Assembly: GCA_025869435.1 (NCBI GenBank)
Contig: JAOZVS010000123.1
Span: 1 to 51,060 of the forward strand
DNA: 51,060 nucleotides
From: Zavarzinia sp.
GTDB lineage: Bacteria > Pseudomonadota > Alphaproteobacteria > Zavarziniales > Zavarziniaceae
Direction of reading: 5' to 3'
Every line of letters begins with the position of its first letter. Positions within the stretch are counted from its first letter, which is position 1. This document shows positions 39,413-51,060 of the stretch, piece after piece. Both the position numbers and the translations under genes were made by a program. Below the pieces are notes generated by a model. It had not been told where the DNA came from. It was given only the letters and a program-made list of their open reading frames with translations, and ran no database searches.

Positions 39413-39582
39413 TCATGTTATCGCCGCCTCCCTCCGACCGACTCTCCGCCGATCCGCCCTCGTGATCGCGTCCGGGACCGATGAGGCTCGAAAAGATGAT
39501 TAAAATTCGGGCAGCATGAATACGACGGCTTGAAATTGAGCAGATGCTGGGGGCATGTTGGATATCACCCTTGCCGTGCCCG

Positions 39583-41091
39583 ATGGCCATGATCGAACTT
39601 TCGCCCAGCCATTACAGAACCGCCTTCGAACATGCGAGCGACGCGATCTTCCTGCACGATCCCGACGATGGCCGCATCATCGAGGCCAATCTGACATCCG
39701 AACAGCTCACCGGTTTTTCCCGGGGCGAGCTTCTCGGCAGCACCGTGTCGATCATCAGTCCCGGCCGCCCGGCCTTCAGCATGGAGGAGGCTTTTCGCCG
39801 CATCCGCCGGGCGACGACCGAGGGCGGCTACACCTTCGAATGGGTGTGCATGAACAAGGGCGGCGGTGAATTTCCGGTCGAGGTGAACCTGAAGCTGATC
39901 ACGGTGGAGGGCCAGCGCCTCGTCCTCGCGCTCTTTCGCGACATCCGGGAACGCAAGCTCTACGAGGACCGGCTGATTGCCCGCGAGGCCCATTTCCGCC
40001 GCCTGATCCAGCATTCGTCCGATGGCATCGCCATCGTCGCGCCCCATGGCCGGCTGCGCTATGTCTCGCCCTCGATCTCGACCGTGCTTGGCTATGACGA
40101 GCGCCGGGCCACCGGGCGAAACGTGCTGCACTACATCCACCCGGAAGACGGCGAGCGCATCCGCCATCTGCTGCGGCGCGAGAGCCAGGGCTGCAACGAC
40201 ACCGATGTCGCCCATCACGTCACCTACCGGATCCTGCATCGCGACGGCCACTGGCGGCACCATGAAGCGACCTGCAAGGACATGGTCAACGCCTCGGACA
40301 TTCAGGGTGTCCTGGTCAATTTCCGCGATGTGACCGAGCGGATCGAGGCGGAATTGCGCGCCCGCGAGCGGGAGCGGGAGCTGGAGCATGTCGCCCGCTG
40401 CCGGTCCATGGGCGAACTCGCCTCCGCCCTCGCGCATGAATTGAACCAGCCCTTCGCCGCTATCGGCAATTATGTCGGCGGCTGCATTCACCGGATCGAA
40501 GGGGATCGCTTCGATCGGGACGAGACCCTCGACGCGCTCCGCCAGGCCAGCGCCCAGGCCGACCGCGCCGGCCGCATCATGAGCAGCATGCGCAATTTCA
40601 CCCGGCGCAGCGATCCCACCCGCATCATGGCCGATGTCAATGCCATGGTGCGCGAGGTCACCCCCTTCATCGATGTGAAGGCGGAACGCGAGGGGTGCCG
40701 GGTGGCCTACCGCCTCTCGGCGACACCGCTGGAAACCATGGCGGACCCGGTGCTGATCGCCCAGGTGATCCTGAATATCGCCTTCAACGGCATCGAGGCC
40801 ATGGCCGAGACCCCGGGTCCGCGCCGGGTCCTGAACATCACCACCGACCGCCTGCCCCGGGCCGTGCGCATCTCGATCGCGGACCAGGGCCACGGGCTGC
40901 CCAAGATGAATCCGGACAAGATCTTCGACGCCTTCTACACGACCAAGAAGCAGGGCCTCGGCATCGGCCTGGCCCTGTGCCGGACCATCGTCGATACCCA
41001 TCAGGGCCATATGTGGGCGACCTCGGGCGCCGATGGCACCACGTTCCATGTCGCCCTGCCGATCGGCCCGCCCGAGGAAGGCACGGCATGA
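39583..41091 (+). CDS. Cytosolic PAS-PAS sensor histidine kinase
   Basis: About 502 residues with no membrane segments. Two PAS domains (YRTAFEHASDAIFLHDPDDG; HFRRLIQHSSDGIAIVAPHG) are followed by a HisKA domain with phospho-His in ALAHELNQPFAAIGNYV. An HATPase domain has NIAFNGIEAMAETPG and KQGLGIGLALCRTI. The HELNQP type is that of FixL/TodS/StyS-like kinases for soluble or aromatic signals. The start is uncertain: ATG 39544 and 39589 are also open. It overlaps the regulator gene by four bases. Confidence 0.88.
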   Translation: MAMIELSPSHYRTAFEHASDAIFLHDPDDGRIIEANLTSEQLTGFSRGELLGSTVSIISPGRPAFSMEEAFRRIRRATTEGGYTFEWVCMNKGGGEFPVEVNLKLITVEGQRLVLALFRDIRERKLYEDRLIAREAHFRRLIQHSSDGIAIVAPHGRLRYVSPSISTVLGYDERRATGRNVLHYIHPEDGERIRHLLRRESQGCNDTDVAHHVTYRILHRDGHWRHHEATCKDMVNASDIQGVLVNFRDVTERIEAELRARERERELEHVARCRSMGELASALAHELNQPFAAIGNYVGGCIHRIEGDRFDRDETLDALRQASAQADRAGRIMSSMRNFTRRSDPTRIMADVNAMVREVTPFIDVKAEREGCRVAYRLSATPLETMADPVLIAQVILNIAFNGIEAMAETPGPRRVLNITTDRLPRAVRISIADQGHGLPKMNPDKIFDAFYTTKKQGLGIGLALCRTIVDTHQGHMWATSGADGTTFHVALPIGPPEEGTA

Positions 41092-41750
41092 ACGCGCTGA
41101 GGTTCCTGCCGCCCGCGGTCGAGCGGCCGACTTCCCCCATCGTCTATATCGTCGACGACGACGAGGCGGTGCGCGCCTCGCTGCGCTTCCTGCTGGAATC
41201 CGTCGGCTCCGACCTTCGATGCTGTTCGAGCGCGGCCGAATTCCTCGACAGCTACGATCCGCGTCGGCCCGGTTGCCTCGTTCTTGATGTTCGAATGCCC
41301 ATGATGGGCGGCTTCGACCTGCAGAAACTGCTGGCCGACACCCGGGTGCCCCTGCCGGTCATCTTCATGACGGGCCATGGCGACGTGCCCATGTCGGTCC
41401 GCGCCATGAAGAATGGCGCCTTCGACTTCATCGAGAAGCCGTTCAACTACCAGGTCATGCTGGACACGATCCAGGGGGCGCTGGTCCGGGGCATCGAGTT
41501 GCACGAGGAGGCGCAGCGCACGTCGAAACGCAGCGCCCGTCTCCTTTCGCTCTCGCCGCGCGAGCGGGCCGTGCTCGACCTCATGATCGACGGCAAGCAG
41601 TCGAAGCAGATCGCCCATGAACTCGGCATCAGCCCGAAGACGGTCGAGGTTCACCGCGCCAACATCCGCCAGAAGCTGGGCACCGACAGTCTGGCGCAGA
41701 TCGTGCAGATCGTCTTCGGCGTGAAGCCGACGGCCTCGGGAAATCCCTGA
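41088..41750 (+). CDS. FixJ/StyR-type response regulator
   Basis: A 220-residue regulator. The receiver domain has acidic pocket VDDDE, phospho-Asp in VLDVRMPMMGG, and MTGHGDVPMSVRAMKNGAFDFIEKPF. A LuxR-type helix-turn-helix follows (LSPRERAVLDLMIDGKQSKQIAHELGISPKTVEVHR). It is coupled to the kinase by ATGA. It sits directly upstream of the catabolic operon, so it is the probable activator of the 41.93-50.09 kb genes. Confidence 0.92.
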   Translation: MNALRFLPPAVERPTSPIVYIVDDDEAVRASLRFLLESVGSDLRCCSSAAEFLDSYDPRRPGCLVLDVRMPMMGGFDLQKLLADTRVPLPVIFMTGHGDVPMSVRAMKNGAFDFIEKPFNYQVMLDTIQGALVRGIELHEEAQRTSKRSARLLSLSPRERAVLDLMIDGKQSKQIAHELGISPKTVEVHRANIRQKLGTDSLAQIVQIVFGVKPTASGNP

Positions 41751-41758
41751 TCCCCCCT

Positions 41759-41823
41759 GGGGAAAACCCCTAGTGCACTGCGATCGCCCCCAATTGAGGG
41801 CGGTAAACCGATTTTCCTATCGT
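41759..41823 (+). promoter_or_regulatory. Dyad-rich promoter of the catabolic operon
   Basis: Three dyads follow each other: GGGG-AAAA-CCCC (41759-41770), CGCCC-N8-GGGCG (41785-41802) and CGGT-AA-ACCG (41801-41810). TTGAGG (41794-41799), an 18-base spacer and TATCGT (41818-41823) give a sigma-70-like promoter. The first dyad is placed for an activator. The 110-base leader also holds a GCCCGGTC/GACCCGGGC hairpin at 41847-41866. Confidence 0.5.
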
Positions 41824-41932
41824 GAAACCCAGGACGTGCGGCAACGGCCCGGTCAATGACCCGGGCGGTTCCATGGGGCACGGCTGAATAGGCCAAGGCT
41901 TGTCCGAAGGCAAGTCCATTCTGGGGGTTACG

Positions 41933-42814
41933 ATGTCTCGTGTTGCTTCTGCATCGATCCTTGTTTCCGCGCTTTCGCTTTGCACGCTCAATGCCGCTCA
42001 GGCGACCGAAGGCGGCGGCGGGGCCTATGCCAATGGCGCGGAAAGTTTCATGACCGGCGCCCTGCCGCCGCCGGGCTTCTACGCCCTCAGCTACAACCAG
42101 TATTACACGGCGGGCGAGTTCAAGAACGACGCGCCGCCCTTCGCCGATTTCGATGTAACCGTCGCCGCCACCATCTTCCGCGCCGTCTATGTCACCGACG
42201 TCAGCATCCTGGGCGGCACCTGGGCCATGCACGCCTTCCTGCCCTTCGCCAAGGTCGATGTCGGCATGGGGTCGGCCAGTGGCAGCGCCTCGGGCCTTGG
42301 CGACATCATCATCGATCCCTTCATCGTCGGCTGGCATTTCGGCGACTTCCACCTGATCACCGGCCTCGACATCTATCTGCCGACCGGCGCCTACGACAAG
42401 AACGACCTCGCCAACATCGGCCGCAACTACACGACCTTCACCCCCGTCGTCGCCGCGACCTGGCTGAATGCCGAAGGTTACGAAGCCTCGATCAAGGTGA
42501 TGTACGACATCAACACCGAGAACACGGCGACCGATTACACCTCGGGCGACGAACTGCACGCCGACTTCATCCTGGCGAAGCACTGGGGCCCGCTCGCGGT
42601 CGGTCTCGGCGGCTATGCCTACAAGCAGGTGACGGGCGACAGCGGCGCCGGCGCCGTGCTCGGCGATTTCAAGGGCCAGGCGCTCGCCCTCGGTCCCCAG
42701 GTCTCCTATGGCGCGGGCAACCTGATGGTCGCCGCCAAATACCAGAGCGAGTTCGAGGTCGAGAACAAGTCCGAAGGCGACAAGTTCTGGCTGAACCTCA
42801 CCCTCGCGTTCTGA
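41933..42814 (+). CDS. Outer-membrane channel, phenol-degradation MetA family
   Basis: A 293-residue protein. The signal peptide ends near ATEGGGG (residue 25). Amphipathic beta strands follow, and the C-terminus ends in FWLNLTLAF with terminal Phe, as expected for outer-membrane barrels. YANGAESFMTGALPPPGFYAL is typical of the Phenol_MetA_deg family found in aromatic catabolic operons. It probably takes up the hydrophobic substrate. ATG 41933 opens the signal peptide; GGGGG lies eight bases before. It is the first gene of the operon. Confidence 0.88.
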   Translation: MSRVASASILVSALSLCTLNAAQATEGGGGAYANGAESFMTGALPPPGFYALSYNQYYTAGEFKNDAPPFADFDVTVAATIFRAVYVTDVSILGGTWAMHAFLPFAKVDVGMGSASGSASGLGDIIIDPFIVGWHFGDFHLITGLDIYLPTGAYDKNDLANIGRNYTTFTPVVAATWLNAEGYEASIKVMYDINTENTATDYTSGDELHADFILAKHWGPLAVGLGGYAYKQVTGDSGAGAVLGDFKGQALALGPQVSYGAGNLMVAAKYQSEFEVENKSEGDKFWLNLTLAF

Positions 42815-42844
42815 TCGGCCCCCAAGACTTCAAGGAGTTCCATC

Positions 42845-44143
42845 ATGTCGGCAGCGCCCGTCATCGAAGTTCATTCCTACTCCGGCGGCATCGTCGGGCC
42901 GAGCATCCCCATGCTCGGTCCGGTGGCCGACGGCGGCACCATCAGGACCGGCACGCCGCCGGGCTGCTGGGGGCCGATGATCACGCCCAAGTTCAAGGGC
43001 GGCCATGAGGTAACCCAGCCCGTCGCGGTCGAGGGCGCCGAGGTCGGCGACGCCGTCGCGATCAAGATCCGGAGCATGAAGGTGACCTCGCTCGCCACCT
43101 CCTCGGGCGTCATGGAATTCGTCGAGGGGCATTACAAGGGCGATCCCTTCGTCGCCAAGCTCTGTCCCGCCTGCGGCACCATGAGCCCGCCGTCCCACGT
43201 CGAGGGTATCGGCGACGACGCGATCCATTGCGATGTCTGCGGCACCAAGGTCCACGCCTTCCACATGTCGAACGGCTATGTGATCGTGCTCGACCGCGAG
43301 GCCGGCGTTTCGGTCACCGTGAACAAGGCGGTCGCGGAGAAACTGGCCGGCAGCGCCAGCGAATTCTCGGTCCTGCCCGATCTCGCCGAACAGCATTCGA
43401 TCCTGACGCTGGCCCGCGCCGACATCGTCGGCCTCGCCGCCCACATGCAGCCCTTCCTCGGCAATATCGGCACGACGCCGTCGGTCGACATTCCCGACTC
43501 CCACAATTGCGGCGACTTCGGCGCCTTCCTGATCGGCGCCCCGCACAATTACGCCCTGACCCAGGACCAGCTGGACGCGGCCAAGACCGATGGCCACATG
43601 GACACCAATTCGGTCCGCGAAGGCGCTATCCTGATCTGCCCGGTGAAAGTCCCCGGCGCTGGTATCTACATGGGCGACATGCACGCCCAGCAGGGCAACG
43701 GCGAGATCGCGGGCCATGCCACCGATGTCTCGGGCGAGACGGAAGTGGACGTCGAGGTCATCAAGGGCCTGGCCATCGACGGCCCGATCCTGCTCCAGCG
43801 CCCCGACGACCTGCCGCCCATGGCGCGGCCGATGACGGCGGCGCAGAAGGCCGCGGTCAAGGCGCTCGCCGCGCGCTACGGCCAGACCGAGATCGAGGAT
43901 AACGCCCCGATCACCTTCCTCGGCACCGCCGCCAACCTGAACGACGCGACGAAGAACGGGCTGGAGCGGGCCTCGAAGGTCACCGGCCTTCCCTACGACG
44001 AGATCCTGAACCGGGCCACCATCACCGGCTCGATCGAGATCAGCCGGCTGCCCGGCATGGTCCGGGTCACCTTCATGTGCCCCATGAACATCATCGAGAA
44101 GATGGGCATCGCCCATCTCGTCCGCGCCCAATACGGCCTCTGA
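42845..44143 (+). CDS. Acetamidase/formamidase-family hydrolase with a four-cysteine insertion
   Basis: A 432-residue FmdA/AmdA-family protein: TPPGCWGPMITP, IPDSHNCGDFGA, GAGIYMGDMHAQQGNGE and GHATDVSGETEVDVEV. Family members hydrolyse short amides such as formamide. C107-x2-C110 and C129-x2-C132 (CPAC, CDVC) form a possible zinc ribbon in the first third. In this operon it could cleave an N-formyl or lactam-type intermediate, releasing formate or ammonia; that is inference. It starts 31 bases after the channel gene. Confidence 0.85.
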   Translation: MSAAPVIEVHSYSGGIVGPSIPMLGPVADGGTIRTGTPPGCWGPMITPKFKGGHEVTQPVAVEGAEVGDAVAIKIRSMKVTSLATSSGVMEFVEGHYKGDPFVAKLCPACGTMSPPSHVEGIGDDAIHCDVCGTKVHAFHMSNGYVIVLDREAGVSVTVNKAVAEKLAGSASEFSVLPDLAEQHSILTLARADIVGLAAHMQPFLGNIGTTPSVDIPDSHNCGDFGAFLIGAPHNYALTQDQLDAAKTDGHMDTNSVREGAILICPVKVPGAGIYMGDMHAQQGNGEIAGHATDVSGETEVDVEVIKGLAIDGPILLQRPDDLPPMARPMTAAQKAAVKALAARYGQTEIEDNAPITFLGTAANLNDATKNGLERASKVTGLPYDEILNRATITGSIEISRLPGMVRVTFMCPMNIIEKMGIAHLVRAQYGL

Positions 44144-44154
44144 GGAGATTTGTG

Positions 44155-45354
44155 ATGTCACAGACTGAACAGCGCTGGGCCGCCGCCTATCCCGAGCTCG
44201 GCACCGGCCCCATTCCGGTCGAACCCTGCGTCTCCCCGGAATTCTTCGACCGGGAAATGGACAAGGTCTTCAGGAAGACCTGGCTGAAGGTCGCCCGCGT
44301 CGAGGAAATCCCGAACCCCGGCGATTACAAGGTGAAGAAACTCGCCTTCGCCCATACGTCCGTGATCCTGATCCGGGGCAAGGACGGGGTGATCCGCGGC
44401 TTCCACAACACCTGCTCGCACCGCGGCAACAAAGTCGTGGTCGAACATGGGGACGAAACCTTCGGCTCGAGCAAGGCCGCCGTCGTCACCTGTCGCTTCC
44501 ACGGCTGGGTTTATGACGCCAAGGGCGACCTCGTCGCCGTGCCCGAGGAAGGCAAGTTCCATTCCTGCTTCGAGCGCAAGGACAACGGCCTCACCCCGAT
44601 CCGCACCGATGTCTGGGAAGGCTTCGTCTTCGTCAACCTCGATCCCGCCGGCACCGACACGGTCGCGGAATTCCTGGGCGACATGGGCAAGCACATGGGG
44701 GGCTTCCCCTATGGCGACATGACCAAATGCTTCGCCTATAACACCGAGCTGAACTGCAACTGGAAAGTCGCCCATGACGCCTTCGCCGAGGCCTATCACG
44801 TCTCGACGATCCATGCCGGCTCCTTCCCGAATGTCTTCTCGTCGGGCTTGCAGAACGTCTATCTCGCCGGGCCGCACCGCACCACCGCGGTCTGCCTGAC
44901 GCTGGACGCCGAACCGAAGCCGGTCGCGAAGATCGCCAATTCCCTGTCGGGGGCCTCGCTCGTCGCGGCCAGGGCGGCGACCATGCTGCCGCCCACCGTC
45001 AATCCGGACAAACGGTCCGACTTCGCCTTCGAGCTGTGCGTGCTGTTCCCCAACCTGCTGCTGCACATCTCGGAAGGCATCTGGTTCACCCATCAGTTCT
45101 GGCCGGTCGCCCACAACCGCACCCGCTGGGAAGGCCGCTACTACCTGCCCCAGCCGAAGACCAATTCGGAACGCTGGGGCCAGGAATTCGCCCAGGTCCT
45201 GCAGCGCAACGCCTGGCTCGAGGACACCGCGACCATGGAAGACACCCAGACCGCCCTCGAATCCGGCGCGAAGCAGGTAATGCACCTGCAGGACGACGAA
45301 ATCCTGATCCGGCACGGCTACCACGCCCTCGAGAAATTCATGGCGGCGGAGTGA
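44155..45354 (+). CDS. Rieske oxygenase, catalytic alpha subunit
   Basis: A 399-residue ring-hydroxylating-type oxygenase. The Rieske cluster ligands are C87/H89 (TCSHRGN) and C113/H116 (CRFHGW). The mononuclear iron probably uses H215, H220 and D363 (MEDTQTALESG). The residue bridging the two centres aligns to E212 (FAEAYHV) instead of the common Asp, as in carnitine-type oxygenases. No classical beta subunit follows, so an alpha-only trimer is likely. Ferredoxin and reductase genes lie at the operon end. The start follows GAGGAG. Confidence 0.92.
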   Translation: MSQTEQRWAAAYPELGTGPIPVEPCVSPEFFDREMDKVFRKTWLKVARVEEIPNPGDYKVKKLAFAHTSVILIRGKDGVIRGFHNTCSHRGNKVVVEHGDETFGSSKAAVVTCRFHGWVYDAKGDLVAVPEEGKFHSCFERKDNGLTPIRTDVWEGFVFVNLDPAGTDTVAEFLGDMGKHMGGFPYGDMTKCFAYNTELNCNWKVAHDAFAEAYHVSTIHAGSFPNVFSSGLQNVYLAGPHRTTAVCLTLDAEPKPVAKIANSLSGASLVAARAATMLPPTVNPDKRSDFAFELCVLFPNLLLHISEGIWFTHQFWPVAHNRTRWEGRYYLPQPKTNSERWGQEFAQVLQRNAWLEDTATMEDTQTALESGAKQVMHLQDDEILIRHGYHALEKFMAAE

Positions 45355-45364
45355 GGAGAGCATC

Positions 45365-45703
45365 ATGACCAAGACCCTGCCCAAGGCCTTCGAGACCCTG
45401 ACGCCCTTCATCGGCTGGGCCCTGCCCACCCAGGACGAGCGCCAGCGGAAGCGCGTCCAGTCCTCCACCGGCGAGATCCGCGCCTTCTACGATGCCGCCC
45501 TGCCGCTGCTGCCGAAGATCCTCGCCTACGTCGATCAATACCCCCTCGGCCAGTTGCCCGAGGACGCGCGGCCGGCGTTCTGGCTGGCGCTGTCGCTCGC
45601 CGAAGTGGCGCCCCATGTCGAGCTTTACAAGGGTGACCCGCTTGTTCCCTTCAGCTTCGATGAAGCCCGCTTCATCGCCGAACACGGGCGGGAGGCCGCC
45701 TGA
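45365..45703 (+). CDS. Unknown 112-residue protein of the oxygenase operon
   Basis: A soluble, mostly helical small protein. It is basic near the N-terminus (PTQDERQRKRVQSSTGEIRAFYDAAL) and acidic after, ending in SFDEARFIAEHGREAA. It has no cysteines, signal peptide or membrane segment. I recognise no family. It starts ten bases after the Rieske gene with GAGGAGA upstream and ends two bases before the NTF2-like gene. The spacing implies stoichiometric production with the oxygenase. A structural or assembly partner is the simplest guess. Confidence 0.75.
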   Translation: MTKTLPKAFETLTPFIGWALPTQDERQRKRVQSSTGEIRAFYDAALPLLPKILAYVDQYPLGQLPEDARPAFWLALSLAEVAPHVELYKGDPLVPFSFDEARFIAEHGREAA

Positions 45704-45705
45704 CC

Positions 45706-46185
45706 ATGGCCCGGACGGCATCCCTCGAGACCCGGCTCGACCGGCTCGAAAGCGCCGAGGCGATCCGCGCCCTGGTCGGACGCTATGCCCTCGGCGCCGA
45801 CCGGCGGAATGATCCCGCGATCTTCCGCGACCTCTTCACCGAGGATGCCGTCTGGGAGGCCGAAGGCTTCGGCCGCCACGAAGGGCGCGAGGTGATCCTC
45901 GACGCGATCTCGACCATCGCGCGCGAGCAGATCGTCTGGACCCTTCACTTCATGACCTCGCCGATCATCGAGATCGATCCCGAGGGCGATACCGCCCGCT
46001 GCCGCTGGTGGCTGTGGGAGACTTCGAAAATTACACCGGAACCGGGCGCCGCCCCCGTGGCCCATTGGCTGGGCGGCACCTACGACAGCCGCCTGCGCCG
46101 GGCGGCGGGGGAATGGCGGTTCCACCACGTCATCCTCTCCCTCTCGCTGATCAGTCCGCACAAGGACGGCTTCACCACGGTCTGA
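45706..46185 (+). CDS. NTF2/SnoaL-like protein
   Basis: A 159-residue cone-fold protein: LESAEAIRALVGRYALGADRRND, FTEDAVWEAEGFGRHEGRE and FHHVILSLSLISPHKDGF. Related folds are hydrolases, isomerases (SnoaL), or beta subunits of ring-hydroxylating oxygenases. It is close to the length of an oxygenase beta subunit but resembles the SnoaL_4 type more. It may act on a reactive intermediate (epoxide or dihydrodiol) or support the Rieske enzyme. Confidence 0.8.
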   Translation: MARTASLETRLDRLESAEAIRALVGRYALGADRRNDPAIFRDLFTEDAVWEAEGFGRHEGREVILDAISTIAREQIVWTLHFMTSPIIEIDPEGDTARCRWWLWETSKITPEPGAAPVAHWLGGTYDSRLRRAAGEWRFHHVILSLSLISPHKDGFTTV

Positions 46186-46210
46186 CACCAGGATTTCAAG
46201 GAACTTTCCC

Positions 46211-47476
46211 ATGCGCAAGATTGCCATCATCGGCGGCGGCCAGGCCGGCCTGCTGCTCGGCTTCGGCCTGATCGACAAGGGTTACGACGTTACCCTCTAT
46301 TCCGACCGGACCTCGGAACAGCTGCTGCACAGCCGTCTGCCGTCCACCACCTTCATGTTCGAAAACTCGTTGAAGCTGGAGCGGGCGCTCGGCCTCAATT
46401 TCTGGGAAGAGCTGGCGCCCTATTCCGAAGGCATTCATGTCGATTTCCGCGCCCCCGACGGGACCATCGGCCTGACCGTGCAGGGCCGCCTGCGCGACAA
46501 TCACGGCCAGGCGGTCGACATGCGCGCCAAGTTCCACCGCTGGATGGATGAATTCACCCGCCGGGGCGGCCGGCTGGTGATCAAATCGGTCAGTCTCGCC
46601 GATCTCGACGATATCTCGGCCACCCATGACCTGACCATCGTCGCCGCCGGCAAGGGCGCCATCGCCGCCCTGTTCGAGCGCGACGACGAGAAATCGGTGC
46701 ACAGCGTGCCGCCGCGCAATCTCGCCGCCGTGCTCGTCACCGGCTCGAATCTGACCGGCCCTCGGCCGTGGCGTGACATTCCCTTCCGCCCGATGCGTTT
46801 CAACTTCATCGCCGGTGCCGGCGAATATTTCTCGCTGCCCTATTACACCCATGCCCGGGGCGAATGCCGCAGCTTCCTGTTCGAAGCCATCCCCGGCGGG
46901 CCGATGGATGTCTTCGGCGATGTGAAGGATGGCGACGACATGGTCGCGCGCGTCCGTCAGGCGGTGAAGACCCTGACCCCGGACGAGGCGGATCATGTTC
47001 CCGACGACATGGAAATCACCGATGCCAATGCCTGGCTGAAGGGCAGCTTCACGCCGGTGGTCCGCAAGGCGGTGGGCACGCTGCCGTCCGGTCGCATCGT
47101 CTTCGGCATTGGCGATGCCGTGGTGCTGAACGACCCGATCGCCGGGCAGGGTGCCAACAATGCAACGCGCATGGTCACCGCCTATCTCGACGCGATCCTC
47201 GCGCGGGGCGACGCCCCCTTCACCCGCGACTGGATGGAGGAGCTTTATGCCGGGTTCTGGGAGCGGTCGGGCCAGTACACCACCGACTTCACCAATGGCC
47301 TCCTGGTGCCGCCGCCGCCGTCGATCATGGAAATCCTCGGGGCCGCCTCGAAATTCCCGGCGATCGCCGATGATTTCGTCGGCAACTTCAACGATCCCAG
47401 CCGCTTCTGGCCGGCGATCACCAGCATCGAGGCGGCCAGGGCCTATATCGCGTCGCGGGTGGGCAATGTCGCCTGA
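46211..47476 (+). CDS. StyA-like group E flavin monooxygenase
   Basis: A 421-residue FAD enzyme. Rossmann motif IGGGQAGLLLGFGL begins at residue 7. The C-terminal FAD contact is GDAVVLNDPIAGQGANNA, and no NAD(P)H domain is present, so it needs reduced FAD from a partner. Styrene and indole monooxygenases have this layout and epoxidise a vinyl or indole C2-C3 bond. The flavin reductase gene overlaps its end by 11 bases. Substrate by homology: styrene-like or indole-like; not provable here. Confidence 0.87.
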   Translation: MRKIAIIGGGQAGLLLGFGLIDKGYDVTLYSDRTSEQLLHSRLPSTTFMFENSLKLERALGLNFWEELAPYSEGIHVDFRAPDGTIGLTVQGRLRDNHGQAVDMRAKFHRWMDEFTRRGGRLVIKSVSLADLDDISATHDLTIVAAGKGAIAALFERDDEKSVHSVPPRNLAAVLVTGSNLTGPRPWRDIPFRPMRFNFIAGAGEYFSLPYYTHARGECRSFLFEAIPGGPMDVFGDVKDGDDMVARVRQAVKTLTPDEADHVPDDMEITDANAWLKGSFTPVVRKAVGTLPSGRIVFGIGDAVVLNDPIAGQGANNATRMVTAYLDAILARGDAPFTRDWMEELYAGFWERSGQYTTDFTNGLLVPPPPSIMEILGAASKFPAIADDFVGNFNDPSRFWPAITSIEAARAYIASRVGNVA

Positions 47477-47981
47477 CCTCGCGGCCGCGGAAGCCGCCTT
47501 CGATCCTCGCGACTTCCGCCGGTCCCTCGGGCTTTACGCGACCGGCGTCGCGGTGGTCACCACCGTGGCGCCGGGAGGGACAAGGGTGGGCCTGACCATC
47601 AATTCCTTCGCCTCGGTCTCCCTCGATCCGCCCCTGATCCTGTGGAGCCTGGCGAAGACCTCGCCCCGCCTCGGACTTTTCGCCGGGGCCGATCATTTCG
47701 CCGTGAACATCCTGGCGAAGGATCAGGAAGAGATGTGCCAGCGCTTCGCCCGCCCGGGCGAGGATCGCTTCGCCGGGCTGGAGACGGCGCCGGGCGCGGG
47801 CGGCGCGCCCCTGCTGCCCGGCTGTCTCGCCCAGCTCGAATGCGCGCGGGATCAGGTGGTCGAGGGCGGCGATCATCTGATCCTGATCGGCCGGGTGCTG
47901 CGTCACCGCCGTGGCGGTGGCCTCGACGCCCTGGTGTTCTGCAACGGCGCCTTCACCGGCATTCCGACGGAGAGACATTGA
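47466..47981 (+). CDS. NAD(P)H:flavin reductase (StyB/HpaC-like)
   Basis: A 171-residue flavin reductase: YATGVAVVTTVAPGG, GLTINSFASVSLDPPLILWSLAK, FAVNILAKDQEEM and GGDHLILIGRVL. It supplies reduced flavin to the StyA-like enzyme. The ATG lies 11 bases inside the end of the monooxygenase gene, so the two are coupled. The domain is the full family length. Confidence 0.9.
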   Translation: MSPDLAAAEAAFDPRDFRRSLGLYATGVAVVTTVAPGGTRVGLTINSFASVSLDPPLILWSLAKTSPRLGLFAGADHFAVNILAKDQEEMCQRFARPGEDRFAGLETAPGAGGAPLLPGCLAQLECARDQVVEGGDHLILIGRVLRHRRGGGLDALVFCNGAFTGIPTERH

Positions 47982-47982
47982 G

Positions 47983-48771
47983 ATGACACAGGATCTGACC
48001 GGCAAGACCGCCATCGTCACAGGCGGCGCGACCCTGATCGGGGCGGCCGTGGTCGCCGCCCTGATCAAGGCCGGGGCGCGGGTGACGCTCGCCGATATCG
48101 ATGTCGCCGGCGGCGAGGCGGTCGCGGCCGGCCTTGGTCCCGCCTGCCGCTTCGCGCGGACGGATGTGACCGATGACGATGCGATCGCGGCCTGTGTCGC
48201 GGGCGCGGTCGGCGCCTTCGGGCGCCTCGACTATCTGGTCAATCTCGCGGCCTGCTATATCGACAAGGGGCCGGCGTCGCCCCGCGCGGACTGGCACGCG
48301 GCCTTCGATGTCAATGTCTTCGGCGGCGTCATGATGCTGCGGGCCTGCCGGCCCCATCTGGCGGCGGCCGGCGGCGGCGCCGTCGTCAATGTCACCAGCG
48401 TGTCCGGCCGTGTCGCGCAAGGGGGCCGCTGGCTCTATCCCGCGACCAAGGCGACGATCGAGCAGGTCACCCGCAACGAGGCCTTCGACCTCGCCGCCGA
48501 GGGCACGCGGGTGAACGCCGTCTCGCTGGGCTGGACCTGGTCGGCCCCCATCGCCGGGCTTTCGGGCGGCGACCGGGCCAGGGCAGACCGCATCGCCGGC
48601 GCCTTCCACCTGACCGGTCGGGTGGGCGATCCCGAGGAAGTGGCGGCGGCGATCGTCTTCCTGCTGTCCCCGGCCGCCTCGCTGATCACCGGCACCACGC
48701 TGGCGGTCGATGGCGGCTATCTGGCGCTCGGCCCCGAAGGGCGCGGCAATCCGATGGAGGCATTCGCATGA
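47983..48771 (+). CDS. SDR-family dehydrogenase of the catabolic operon
   Basis: A 262-residue SDR. The cofactor motif is VTGGATLIG, with an Asp in LADID favouring NAD+. Catalytic Ser is in VTSVSGR and YPATK. Near the end are LITGTTLAVDGGYLALGPEG. In this setting it may oxidise a cis-dihydrodiol or alcohol formed by one of the oxygenases. It starts one base after the flavin reductase stop and overlaps the ferredoxin gene by four bases. Confidence 0.87.
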   Translation: MTQDLTGKTAIVTGGATLIGAAVVAALIKAGARVTLADIDVAGGEAVAAGLGPACRFARTDVTDDDAIAACVAGAVGAFGRLDYLVNLAACYIDKGPASPRADWHAAFDVNVFGGVMMLRACRPHLAAAGGGAVVNVTSVSGRVAQGGRWLYPATKATIEQVTRNEAFDLAAEGTRVNAVSLGWTWSAPIAGLSGGDRARADRIAGAFHLTGRVGDPEEVAAAIVFLLSPAASLITGTTLAVDGGYLALGPEGRGNPMEAFA

Positions 48772-49100
48772 GCGACGGCGGTGTTCTGGCCGGCACTTTC
48801 CTGTGCCTTGAAGACGCGGTGCCCGAGGGCGGCGCCCTGAAGATCGAGATCGCGGGCCGCCCGCCGATCGCGGTCTTCCGGGTTCAGGGGCGTTTCTTCG
48901 TCACCGACGATACCTGCACCCATGGCGAGGCCTCGCTTTCGGAAGGCGAGATCGACGCGGACGAATGTGTCGTCGAATGTCCCTGGCATTCGGGCGCCTT
49001 CGAGCTTTCGAGCGGCAAGCCCTGCGGCGCCCCCTGTACCATCGCGCTGCGCGTTCACCGCTTCGAGCGGCGCGACGGCGGCCTCTATCTCCTCGGATGA
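48768..49100 (+). CDS. Rieske-type ferredoxin
   Basis: A 110-residue [2Fe-2S] ferredoxin of the BphF/NirD type. The cluster ligands are C50/H52 (TCTHGEA) and C71/H74 (CPWHSG). It carries electrons from the reductase to the Rieske oxygenase four genes upstream. Start and stop overlap both neighbours as ATGA. Confidence 0.92.
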   Translation: MSDGGVLAGTFLCLEDAVPEGGALKIEIAGRPPIAVFRVQGRFFVTDDTCTHGEASLSEGEIDADECVVECPWHSGAFELSSGKPCGAPCTIALRVHRFERRDGGLYLLG

Positions 49101-50089
49101 AGATCATGGCTCGTATCGAGATCGTCGACGGCGCGGCCTTCCCCTGCGAGGCGGGGGATACGCTGCTGCGCGCCGGACTGCGCGCCGGCCTCGGCCTGCC
49201 CTATGAATGCAACGCGGGCGGTTGCGGCACCTGCAAGGTCGAACTGGTCGAGGGCGCGGTGGACAATCTGTGGCCCGAGGCGCCCGGCCTGTCCGACCGG
49301 GACCGGCGCAAGGGCCGGGTGCTGGCCTGCCAGTCGCGGCCCTCCGGCGACTGTCGCCTGCGTCTGCGCCTCGATCCCGCCTGCGTGCCGCCGGTCCGGC
49401 CCGTGAGGCGCGGCGCCCGTCTCGTCGGCATCGCCGATATCACCCGCGATATCCGGGAATTCCGTTTCAGGGCGGAAGGTCCGGCGGATTTCCTGCCCGG
49501 CCAATATGCCCTGCTGTCGCTGCCGGACGGTCTGGAGCGGGCCTATTCCCTGTCGAATACCGCCAATGACGCGGGCGAATGGCATTTCCAGATCCGCCGT
49601 GTGCCTGGCGGGCGCATGACCGGCCGGCTGTTCGACGACCCCCCGGCGGCGGTGATGCTGGATGGCCCTTACGGCCTCGCCCATCTGCGCGAAGGCCCTC
49701 GGGACATCGTCTGCGTCGCCGGTGGCTCCGGCCTTGCCCCCATGGTCTCGATCGCGCGCGGCATCGCGGCCGATCCCGCGGACCAGCGCCGGGTGCATTT
49801 CTTTCACGGCGGCCGCGCGGCGCTCGATCTGCCGGGGGAGGCCTGGGCCCGCGACCTCACAGGCCTCGGCTCCCGTCTCGACTATCATCCCGCCGTCTCG
49901 GACGAAGCCGCCCCGGGCCTGCCCAAGGGCTATATCCACGACATCCTGGCCGGCTGGCTGGGCGAGAGATTCGATGCCTTCGACTTCTACTGCGCCGGCC
50001 CGCCGCCCATGGTGCAAGCGCTGGAAGCCCTTCTGATCGCCGAAAAGGGCCTGCACCCAGGCCGGGTTCGCTTCGATCGCTTCTTCTAG
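49097..50089 (+). CDS. Ferredoxin reductase with plant-type [2Fe-2S], FAD and NAD domains
   Basis: A 330-residue reductase. An N-terminal plant-type cluster has C38, C43, C46 and C78 (CNAGGCGTC). The FAD-binding domain has RAYSLSNT and the NAD domain GGSGLAPMVS with a terminal FDRFF. It passes electrons from NAD(P)H to the Rieske ferredoxin, completing a three-component oxygenase. ATG 49097 is coupled to the ferredoxin stop; ATG 49106 is an alternative. It is the last gene of the operon. Confidence 0.92.
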   Translation: MKIMARIEIVDGAAFPCEAGDTLLRAGLRAGLGLPYECNAGGCGTCKVELVEGAVDNLWPEAPGLSDRDRRKGRVLACQSRPSGDCRLRLRLDPACVPPVRPVRRGARLVGIADITRDIREFRFRAEGPADFLPGQYALLSLPDGLERAYSLSNTANDAGEWHFQIRRVPGGRMTGRLFDDPPAAVMLDGPYGLAHLREGPRDIVCVAGGSGLAPMVSIARGIAADPADQRRVHFFHGGRAALDLPGEAWARDLTGLGSRLDYHPAVSDEAAPGLPKGYIHDILAGWLGERFDAFDFYCAGPPPMVQALEALLIAEKGLHPGRVRFDRFF

Positions 50090-50669: not shown

Positions 50670-50729
50670 CGGTTGGATCCCTGGTTGCACCTATATCGCA
50701 CCTGGTTCCAGCCTCTCAGGAGGTGGAAA

Positions 50730-51060
50730 ATGCCAAAACTCAAACTCACCAAGTCGGCGGTCGAGGCTGCGACCCCGAAGGAGCGCGATTACGATCTCCG
50801 CGACACACTCATACCCGGCTTCATGGTGAAGGTCACGCCCGCTGGCCGGAAGATCTTCATGCTCCACTATCAGACACGGTCCGGCATCCGCCGCAAGCCG
50901 GCGATCGGCCGGTACGGGGAATTGACCGTCGAGCAGGCCAGGAAGATCGCACAGGACTGGCTGGCGGATGTTCGTCTCGGCAACGACCCCAGCTCCGAGC
51001 GCTCTGCCATGAGAGCGGCGCCGACGGTGAAGGAGCTCTGCGAGCGATTCATCGAGGACT
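50730..51060 (+). CDS. int: Tyrosine-type integrase, 5' part (runs off the window)
   Basis: ATG 50730 follows AGGAGGT at five-base spacing. The 110 visible residues show the arm-binding DUF4102-type domain: LTKSAVEAATP, YDLRDTLIPGFMVKVTPAGRK, FMLHYQTRSG, KPAIGRYGELTVEQARKIA and GNDPSSER. The start of the core-binding domain follows (PTVKELCERFIED). The catalytic domain lies beyond the window. P4-type integrases of this kind insert into tRNA 3' ends. The gene points into the element, away from the att site. Confidence 0.9.
   Translation, partial: MPKLKLTKSAVEAATPKERDYDLRDTLIPGFMVKVTPAGRKIFMLHYQTRSGIRRKPAIGRYGELTVEQARKIAQDWLADVRLGNDPSSERSAMRAAPTVKELCERFIED

Follow-up and report, generated by a model that had tools for sequence, protein, structure and literature searches.

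What does the compact oxygenase operon on this Zavarzinia contig break down, and by which route? The window, i.e., the whole stretch of 51,060 nucleotides analyzed here, was described in a sequence-only reading as carrying a tight ten-gene oxygenase operon, for which an indole-like N-heteroaromatic was proposed as substrate. The operon is real: ten open frames lie on the + strand from 41933 to 50089, with neighboring genes spaced −11 (overlapping) to +30 bases apart, and the recurrence of their complete order in Z. aquatilis and on two Acinetobacter plasmids argues against chance.

A ten-gene operon and its regulators

The features of the locus are as follows (basis of assignment in brackets).

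39544..41091, + strand: sensor histidine kinase with two PAS, HisKA and HATPase_c domains (domain families)
41088..41750, + strand: FixJ/StyR-type response regulator, receiver and GerE domains (domain families, identity)
41751..41932, + strand: putative promoter/operator gap of 182 bases, conserved with Z. aquatilis
41933..42814, + strand: outer-membrane channel of the Phenol_MetA_deg family, MetA-type porin (Pfam)
42845..44143, + strand: FmdA/AmdA-type amidase, 432 aa (Pfam FmdA_AmdA)
44155..45354, + strand: Rieske oxygenase alpha subunit, Rieske and Ring_hydroxyl_A domains (Pfam/NCBIfam, alignment)
45365..45703, + strand: 112-aa protein, no Pfam family (Pfam search)
45706..46185, + strand: SnoaL_4/NTF2-fold protein (Pfam)
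46211..47476, + strand: group E flavin monooxygenase, Smoa_sbd/StyA-like, skatole-monooxygenase-like (Pfam/NCBIfam, tree, fingerprint)
47466..47981, + strand: flavin reductase partner, Flavin_Reduct (Pfam/NCBIfam)
47983..48771, + strand: SDR dehydrogenase, NCBIfam subfamily NF006121 (NCBIfam)
48768..49100, + strand: Rieske-type [2Fe-2S] ferredoxin (NCBIfam/Pfam, motifs)
49097..50089, + strand: BenC-like [2Fe-2S]/FAD reductase, Fer2/FAD/NAD (NCBIfam/Pfam, motifs)

The range first given for the operon, 41088 to 50089, was right at its end; its start, however, is that of the response regulator, the first of the ten genes begins at 41933, and the kinase lies outside that range. Operon G+C (0.65–0.71) falls inside the contig range (0.62–0.71), so composition lends no support to recent acquisition. 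Rfam gave zero matches at gathering score over the window, and a tRNA search found none.

Z. aquatilis and one Zavarzinia MAG encode orthologs of the kinase at 85–88%, and the Acinetobacter plasmids do so at 42%. The kinase is 30% identical to StyS, and the response regulator is 45% identical to StyR of Pseudomonas VLB120. The proposal that the operon has its own PAS kinase/FixJ regulator agrees with the distribution of the response regulator, found at ≥84% in exactly three of the seven family genomes, the same three that carry the operon monooxygenase (≥90%). This pair probably switches the operon on in response to a putative signal. Between 41751 and 41932 no sigma-70-type promoter was matched, and a StyR-type box, searched with an approximate query, reached 11/16 at best. 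The gap holds an inverted repeat, CGCCCCCAATTGAGGGCG, at 41785–41802, with arms of 5 bases here and 7 in Z. aquatilis.

Family placement of the monooxygenase

StyA was the top NCBIfam match of the monooxygenase, at 200.9 bits, below the equivalog cut-off of 550. The protein is 30% identical to VLB120 StyA and 39–46% identical to IMO-type rows of our comparison set, in which one locus (L043) gave no frame, the window itself (L048) was skipped and L040 and L053 are one gene. In a tree from which 13 of 49 rows were left out as near-duplicates, the five operon monooxygenases formed one clade (99/95), outside the IMO-type and SMO-type rows. At fingerprint positions 46, 48, 50, 73, 76 and 96 the window reads S-T-M-S-I-G and the five operon rows S-T-[MLF]-[SAG]-[IL]-G. 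The IMO fingerprint (S46-Q48-M50-V/I73-I76-A96) was present in 32 of 35 IMO-type rows, two of which (L040 and L053) are one gene, and in none of the five operon rows. The SMO fingerprint (N46-V48-H50-Y73-H76-S96) occurred in six of 49 rows (L009–L012, L076, L077) and is missing from the window; L009–L012 are other genes from the Zavarzinia family. Judged by these residues and the tree, the monooxygenase is not StyA, and "StyAB-like" is right at the family level only.

With sty operons such as that of Pseudomonas VLB120, the window operon shares a two-component monooxygenase and StySR-like regulators, and a sty variant for styrene-type epoxidation would draw on these likenesses and on the StyA profile match. 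However, the SMO fingerprint is absent, the tree position is apart, none of the ten genes encodes an isomerase, a Rieske system and an amidase are extra, and relatives in the same family do carry the SMO fingerprint. We regard a styrene pathway as very improbable.

Skatole monooxygenases (SkaMOs) have been reported to lack both fingerprints and to branch apart from SMOs and IMOs, which is what we found for the window enzyme. Absence of both fingerprints is not skatole-specific, since L067, L078, L079 and L080 share it and L080 sits among nucleoside genes. Membership in the SkaMO group would further imply a common branch with SkaA of R. aetherivorans DMU1 and with p38 XEZ56878. The tree sisters of the operon clade (99/95) are homologs from Nocardia and Tsukamurella and one from A. 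vitis, on long branches and not identified as SkaA. Side chains at fingerprint positions 73 and 96 are smaller here than in the majority of IMO-type rows and might accommodate a bulkier C3.

A close published parallel is the skatole degrader Acinetobacter piscicola p38, with 1684 as Rieske alpha subunit, 1687 as monooxygenase, 1688 as flavin reductase and 1690 as ferredoxin (PMC11434297). By numbers and annotations, rather than sequence, the spacing of these genes equals the window order. Purified 1687 and 1688 consumed both skatole and indole, and 1684, 1687 and 1690 appear in the skatole-upregulated table, which covers oxygenase and acyl-CoA genes only (PMC11434297). The operon's first enzyme pair is hence probably already known, as p38 1687 and 1688. 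The skatole table also includes two catA genes and benzoate dioxygenase genes 2071–2073 (PMC11434297). Another Rieske enzyme could act in p38, because 1684 is also indole-listed and 2071–2073 are skatole-listed. Reported p38 metabolites, i.e., anthranilic acid, benzoic acid, "2-aminobenzene acetone" and others, fit other routes too (PMC11434297). The words "amidase" and "porin" are absent from the main text of that paper, where we saw no step assigned past the first.

These data also bear on whether the main substrate is instead indole or another 3-substituted indole (an auxin-like acid, tryptophol), with skatole turnover as a side activity. The indole consumption by the p38 pair, the indole listing of 1684 and the identity to IMO-type rows would agree with this. 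Against it, 1687 is listed for skatole and absent from the indole table, which alone holds a separate IMO gene, gene1650 (PMC11434297), and the smaller residues 73 and 96 would suit a larger C3 substituent. We consider an indole-type main substrate unlikely.

A proposed route from skatole to catechol

We propose, with a probability of roughly 0.65, that the operon serves the aerobic breakdown of skatole (3-methylindole, possibly also other 3-alkylindoles) to catechol by two modules. The earlier assignment to an indole-like substrate is thereby supported and narrowed to a likely skatole or 3-alkylindole, with catechol as likely product.

Module A, consisting of porin, flavin reductase, skatole monooxygenase and SDR, is iif-like: the operon SDR shares 51% identity with A. 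baumannii IifB, the monooxygenase 42% with IifC, the flavin reductase 46% with IifD and the porin 28% with IifE, and the SDR and IifB both score over the NF006121 cut-off. Monooxygenase and flavin reductase would convert skatole to its 2,3-epoxide, to be hydrated to the diol, which the SDR may oxidize to 3-hydroxy-3-methyloxindole. In the iif/ind/ipo-dho operons of Acinetobacter, Cupriavidus and Pseudomonas savastanoi, IifA makes anthranilate, whereas the window has a Rieske/amidase module instead; several of those operons also lie beside AraC-family regulators, in contrast to the two-component pair here. IifA had no match in the five operon loci searched (the window, L002 with 5.2 kb only, L003, L013 and L014) and was found in L074 and L081. 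Its absence is not diagnostic, because the searched stretches of L004, L005, L015 and L075 lack it too.

Module B would stand in for IifA and anthranilate dioxygenase as used in the indole route; with a methyl group on C3, that route would probably fail. The claim of an alpha-only Rieske oxygenase with its own ferredoxin and reductase held: no Rieske beta-subunit family was matched by Pfam in any of the ten proteins, and an alignment of 12 rows shows the Rieske-site ligands (two Cys, two His) and both iron His to be invariant, with Asp357 almost so. The Rieske-site spacing is longer than our motif pattern allowed, and a scan with two alpha-subunit patterns found nothing. Ferredoxin and reductase Cys/His motifs and the SDR YxxxK are all intact. 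With its Rieske and 2-His-1-Asp sites, ferredoxin and reductase, the system has the parts of a three-component Rieske oxygenase. Together with the 112-aa and SnoaL proteins, it may add dioxygen across the N-bearing carbon of the ring and the carbon next to it, the side chain would be lost in a retro-aldol step to give catechol, and the amidase would release ammonia, leaving pyruvate. The atom balance closes with catechol, pyruvic acid and NH3. As a proposal, we place the Rieske step ahead of the FmdA-type amidase, which would then act on the pyruvamide released; all module B steps and the catechol end product are predicted from the gene set.

The order could be reversed, i.e., the amidase would open the 3-hydroxy-3-methyloxindole lactam to 2-(2-aminophenyl)-2-hydroxypropanoate, and the Rieske enzyme, acting like an anthranilate dioxygenase, would yield catechol, pyruvate and ammonia. 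The atoms balance equally, and anthranilate 1,2-dioxygenase leads the weak NCBIfam matches of the alpha subunit. However, these lie far below the equivalog cut-offs (TIGR03228, 100.1 bits against 671.9; AndAc, 85.7 against 750), and the FmdA/AmdA family is named for small primary amides, not anilide lactams. We hold amidase action before the Rieske step to be rather unlikely.

The amidase matched Pfam FmdA_AmdA with 139.4 bits (cut-off 27) and scored 36.9 bits for the FmdA formamidase NF045496, under the equivalog cut-off of 500; it carries a CPxCG...CxxCG zinc-ribbon-like insert. Since the FmdA family includes formamidases, and "2-aminobenzene acetone" is among the p38 metabolites, C2-C3 cleavage to N-formyl-2-aminoacetophenone could be followed by formate removal by the FmdA-type enzyme and Rieske conversion of 2-aminoacetophenone to catechol, acetate and ammonia. 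But an oxygenase for C2-C3 cleavage is not evident in the operon: IifA is unmatched, and the SnoaL and 112-aa proteins, with no such assignment, accompany the Rieske gene in Novosphingobium without monooxygenase and SDR. Deformylation is therefore improbable, and from the route of the sequence-only reading we retain as plausible C2-C3 epoxidation, SDR oxidation, amide hydrolysis and Rieske attack, and drop deformylation by FmdA.

Module B is found without module A in Novosphingobium EMRT-2; the Novosphingobium FmdA-family gene is of another type (28%), and close FmdA homologs stand without other operon parts in four regions examined. The 112-aa protein is a recurrent neighbor of the operon-type clade of Rieske alpha subunits. 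An alignment of 11 members including the window's gave one weak Pfam match in one member (QCR10, E 0.091), the PDB gave nothing convincing (best E 0.044, a designed protein), and among 398 drawn Pseudomonadota genomes the protein turned up in that of the window alone.

Like the route proposed here, the iac clusters for auxin degradation take a 3-substituted indole to a 3-hydroxy-oxindole (DOAA) and end in catechol, and they too contain Rieske, amidase and SnoaL-fold genes. They differ, by description, in that IacA is of acyl-CoA-dehydrogenase type and IacC has a beta partner, IacD; neither of these families was found among the ten operon proteins. IacH is annotated "amidase", which likens it to the operon amidase at the level of annotation. 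Tentatively, module B might be a general device that takes 3-hydroxy-3-substituted oxindoles to catechol without anthranilate, and would then also fill the DOAA-to-catechol gap. Angular dioxygenation of the ring carbons that carry N and C3 would open the lactam unaided, and a retro-aldol step, perhaps aided by the SnoaL or the 112-aa protein, would release catechol together with a small primary 2-oxo-amide, which for skatole is pyruvamide. A primary-amide amidase of any family could then free ammonia: FmdA here, an asparaginase-annotated gene in Azospirillum/Paroceanicella, IacH in iac.

Distribution and meaning of the gene set

The gene-order search suggested for other alphaproteobacteria returned the complete set in Z. 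aquatilis (74–95% per protein); the two Acinetobacter plasmids (41–74%) both come from pig manure or feces. Acinetobacter chromosomes were sought in a comparable draw of 398 Pseudomonadota genomes and by two family searches, of which one over 116 genomes gave only homologs of 37–41% and the other over 140 genomes nothing above threshold. The draw, we think, contains no Acinetobacter, because an A. baumannii housekeeping gene found no match in it above 71%. In the stretches of Z. aquatilis that were searched, neither the kinase pair nor the operon is flanked by orthologs of the window neighbors (GlxA-like regulator, transporter, sox-like, dnaB). Plasmid p1 of the skatole degrader Cupriavidus KK10, with an FmdA (69%) and a two-component pair nearby (kinase 29%, regulator 44%), was set aside as a supporting locus, having no other operon gene in 17 kb and no monooxygenase match on p1.

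Plasmid locus L014 carries catA, catC, a cycloisomerase and a CoA transferase 2.3–6.3 kb upstream of the operon (ortho route); in L013 no cat genes are annotated in 29 kb, and PLSDB annotation is incomplete. Z. aquatilis has a phenol hydroxylase and a catechol 2,3-dioxygenase near the operon (meta route), the latter with its own reason for presence, since the phenol hydroxylase adjoins it. No catechol genes lie beside the operon in the window; catechol 2,3-dioxygenase scored over the cut-off in all seven family genomes.

Novelty is weaker than first thought, as the p38 cluster with matching numbering (2024, PMC11434297) and the Rhodococcus ska cluster with its Rieske system (2026, PMC13101512) are in print. 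The latter (skaCDZEFGHAIJKRLB) shares the group E monooxygenase, flavin reductase, three-component Rieske system and a LuxR-type regulator; unlike the ten genes here, it has 14 genes in another order with the regulator embedded, DMU1 SkaA is reported to be <40% identical to Gram-negative homologs, and the word "amidase" is absent from the main text (PMC13101512). Both the first step and a skatole cluster that joins a monooxygenase to a Rieske system are already published, which leaves less that is new. If the p38 link holds, the monooxygenase/reductase pair belongs to a characterized pathway; for the other genes we saw none.

Skatole is a main manure odorant and a fecal odor compound. In the literature examined, its degradation is traced only to 3-hydroxy-3-methyloxindole, with the authors calling for more research downstream, and for auxin the matching part from DOAA to catechol was described in 2020 as unfilled. 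The 112-aa protein represents a family that lacks a Pfam model and goes with the operon-type clade of Rieske oxygenases. Common to Alphaproteobacteria and Acinetobacter plasmids, the ten-gene set is a candidate for the entire route that is both compact and expressible, with its intermediates named.

Layout and recurrence of the ten-gene operon

The window is one entire contig (51,060 bases) of an incomplete assembly (75.5% complete), with Zavarzinia as the closest named relative among the genomes compared. Family searches of all ten operon genes agreed with the family that the sequence-only reading had assigned to each of them; for the 112-aa protein a Pfam search gave no match at E values up to 1. 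The ten genes are joined by junctions of −11 to +30 bases and are flanked as follows:

39544–41091: sensor kinase with two PAS domains, four-base overlap with the response regulator
41088–41750: response regulator, upstream of the ten genes across a 182-base gap
41933–50089, + strand: porin, FmdA-type amidase, Rieske alpha subunit, 112-aa protein, SnoaL-fold protein, monooxygenase, flavin reductase, SDR, ferredoxin, reductase
50709–51059: start of an integrase-type gene (Arm-DNA-bind_3) just past the operon, cut by the contig end

We compared the ten operon proteins and the two regulators with 17 fetched loci by tblastn. The sequence-only reading had proposed a search for the gene order in other alphaproteobacteria, and all ten genes were indeed found in the same order in Zavarzinia aquatilis. 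Two Acinetobacter plasmids of pig-manure and pig-faeces origin (L013, L014) also showed the complete order, and a Zavarzinia MAG contig (L002) carried the last six genes with their order kept. Identities between the window and L013 were 74% (FmdA), 72% (Rieske alpha), 58% (monooxygenase), 56% (reductase), 54% (porin), 53% (112-aa protein), 52% (ferredoxin), 49% (SDR), 45% (flavin reductase) and 41% (SnoaL). In Acinetobacter both regulators, with 52% (response regulator) and 42% (kinase) identity, lie downstream of the operon and convergent to it. Three of seven Zavarzinia-family genomes (G000, G006 and Z. aquatilis, G002) encode the operon monooxygenase at 90% identity or more, and in the same three the response regulator has a match of at least 84%, the next best being 46%. 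In G006 the kinase, the regulator, the porin and the beginning of FmdA are adjacent, in the same arrangement that the window shows; the kinase/regulator pair of Z. aquatilis is on a different contig. A monooxygenase match was present in 54 plasmid records; the two from Acinetobacter reached 56% and all others about 43% or less.

Operon copies of FmdA (42845–44143 in the window) contain a zinc-ribbon-like insert. Full-length FmdA relatives (55–73%) occur in Paraburkholderia, Dinoroseobacter and Gemmobacter (loci L096, L097, L099), where other operon parts are absent from the annotations. On Cupriavidus KK10 plasmid p1 (L095, 3035–5334), a two-component pair, whose regulator and kinase share 44% and 29% identity with the window's, lies less than 5 kb from a 69% FmdA gene.

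An iif-like half and a Rieske half

Porin, monooxygenase, flavin reductase and SDR share 28, 42, 46 and 51% identity with Acinetobacter baumannii IifE, IifC, IifD and IifB of the indole operon, respectively, and the SDR and IifB both score above the cut-off of one NCBIfam subfamily. Anthranilate in the indole route is described in a review as the product of IifA. Sequence searches did not find IifA in the window, L002, Z. aquatilis (L003), L013 or L014, and matched it in two other loci (L074, L081). This absence alone proves little, because loci L004, L005, L015 and L075 likewise gave no IifA match. The last of these, from Azospirillum thermophilum (L075, 6065–12128), has iifB/C/D-like genes, a porin (47% to the window's), a cyclase-family gene and an FAD oxidoreductase, and may represent an alternative ending of the indole route.

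Genes of the Rieske half recur elsewhere. In Novosphingobium EMRT-2 an FmdA-family gene of a different type (28% identity to the window's) forms one uninterrupted series with Rieske alpha (65%), 112-aa (55%), SnoaL (44%) and ferredoxin (39%) genes. Two further loci combine alpha subunit, 112-aa protein, two cupins, an NTF2-type protein, ferredoxin and an asparaginase-annotated gene:

L020, 10004–14621: related Rieske module of Azospirillum ramasamyi, adjoining catechol genes
L022, 7965–13973: related Rieske module of Paroceanicella, adjoining a xanthine-dehydrogenase-type enzyme

On plasmids, the best Rieske alpha match lay within 100 bases of the 112-aa homolog in at least 11 of the 20 records listed (23 found). 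As Rieske-side genes recur without the iif-like set, the SnoaL and 112-aa proteins seem tied to the Rieske step rather than to the epoxide. An alignment of 11 members of the 112-aa family (45365–45703 in the window; no Pfam model) showed invariant L5, P6, L12, W18, R26, R30, F41, E86 and R102. One EMRT-2 plasmid (L018: 5784–7923, 10791–14381, 17754–19297) carries three pairs of Rieske alpha and 112-aa genes within 14 kb, the alphas being 65, 49 and 38% identical to the window's.

Skatole as candidate substrate

The pig-faeces isolate Acinetobacter piscicola p38 removed 100 mg/L skatole in 6 h (PMC11434297). Its table of skatole-upregulated genes, restricted to oxygenase and acyl-CoA genes, includes gene1684 (Rieske alpha), gene1687 (monooxygenase) and gene1690 (ferredoxin), as well as two catA and benzoate dioxygenase genes; the indole table includes gene1684 without gene1687 and gene1690. 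Purified gene1687 with the flavin reductase gene1688 consumed indole and skatole, and a separate indole monooxygenase (IMO), gene1650, consumed indole (PMC11434297). By gene numbers and annotations, not by sequence, 1684, 1687, 1688 and 1690 fit the operon order from alpha to ferredoxin exactly.

Of the 49 monooxygenase rows collected, 36 entered a tree, in which the five operon enzymes formed a single clade (support 99/95), joined at 99/95 by three homologs on long branches (Nocardia, Tsukamurella, Agrobacterium vitis). This group was separate from six styrene monooxygenase (SMO)-type rows (100/100) and from 22 rows of IMO type (85/97, an unstarred branch). Six positions that distinguish SMO from IMO (46, 48, 50, 73, 76, 96) are cited in PMC13101512, according to which skatole monooxygenases (SkaMOs) lack both fingerprints. 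We found N-V-H-Y-H-S in the six SMO-type rows, S-Q-M-V/I-I-A in 32 of 35 IMO-type rows (deviants L015, L039, L067) and S-T-[MLF]-[SAG]-[IL]-G in the five operon rows. At 73 and 96 the residues are small and would give space to a 3-methyl group. Both fingerprints are also missing from the three long-branched homologs, and absence of both is not specific to SkaMO.

We consider it reasonably probable, at about two in three, that the operon degrades skatole to catechol via 3-hydroxy-3-methyloxindole. Our confidence is slightly reduced because lacking both fingerprints is unspecific and because benzoate dioxygenase of p38 is skatole-induced as well.

Other monooxygenase genes in the genus (L010, L011, L012) and family (L009) of the window carry the SMO fingerprint, so this family has styrene-type enzymes in addition to that of the operon. 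Group E monooxygenase genes stand in tandem pairs at L081 (5938–8366) and G384:C17:377749–380236, and one on an A. vitis conjugative plasmid (L080, 5916–11084) neighbours nucleoside hydrolase, dihydropyrimidinase and ABC transporter genes.

A proposed route to catechol

Upstream of the operon on L014, at 2.3–6.3 kb, are genes for catA, catC, muconate cycloisomerase and 3-oxoacid CoA-transferase; the 29 kb fetched of L013 had no catechol genes among the annotated features. Z. aquatilis has phenol-hydroxylase genes facing the operon, and with them a catechol 2,3-dioxygenase that scored 419.6 bits against a cut-off of 320.2 and lies roughly 7 kb away from the monooxygenase. Two different ring-cleavage routes beside one operon suggest catechol as its product. 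This suggestion is tempered, since catechol 2,3-dioxygenase exceeded the cut-off in all seven Zavarzinia-family genomes, and phenol hydroxylase itself yields catechol. The N-terminal domain of catechol 1,2-dioxygenase was found in one of the seven, and not in G000 or G002.

Monooxygenation of skatole (C9H9N), hydration and loss of 2 H would give 3-hydroxy-3-methyloxindole (C9H9NO2). Rieske dioxygenation would then lead to C9H11NO4, equal to catechol plus pyruvamide, and hydrolysis of the latter would release pyruvic acid and ammonia. The computed atom balance covers nine of nine carbons, and the route assigns a step to every operon enzyme of known class. The amidase might instead act before the Rieske enzyme within the same overall pathway, and the atoms balance equally well. 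Of the two orders we prefer, as the more probable, the one in which the Rieske enzyme acts before the amidase: the amidase's family takes its name from small primary amides, and some three-component Rieske enzymes with only an alpha subunit, e.g., carbazole 1,9a-dioxygenase, attack the carbon beside nitrogen.

Clusters for auxin degradation (iac) likewise contain a Rieske enzyme, a SnoaL-fold protein and an amidase. Their oxindole, DOAA, is the auxin analogue of 3-hydroxy-3-methyloxindole; according to PMC7225977, IacB plus IacI left it unconverted, and the gap from DOAA to catechol was unfilled. Our literature search, with most subscription papers and supplements beyond its reach, found neither a description of the ten-gene set nor an assignment of the steps after 3-hydroxy-3-methyloxindole. 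Published work already covers the first step, a skatole-induced cluster whose gene numbers match, and a skatole cluster that combines a monooxygenase with a Rieske system, and we therefore class the operon among the known indole-type catabolic clusters, as a variant.
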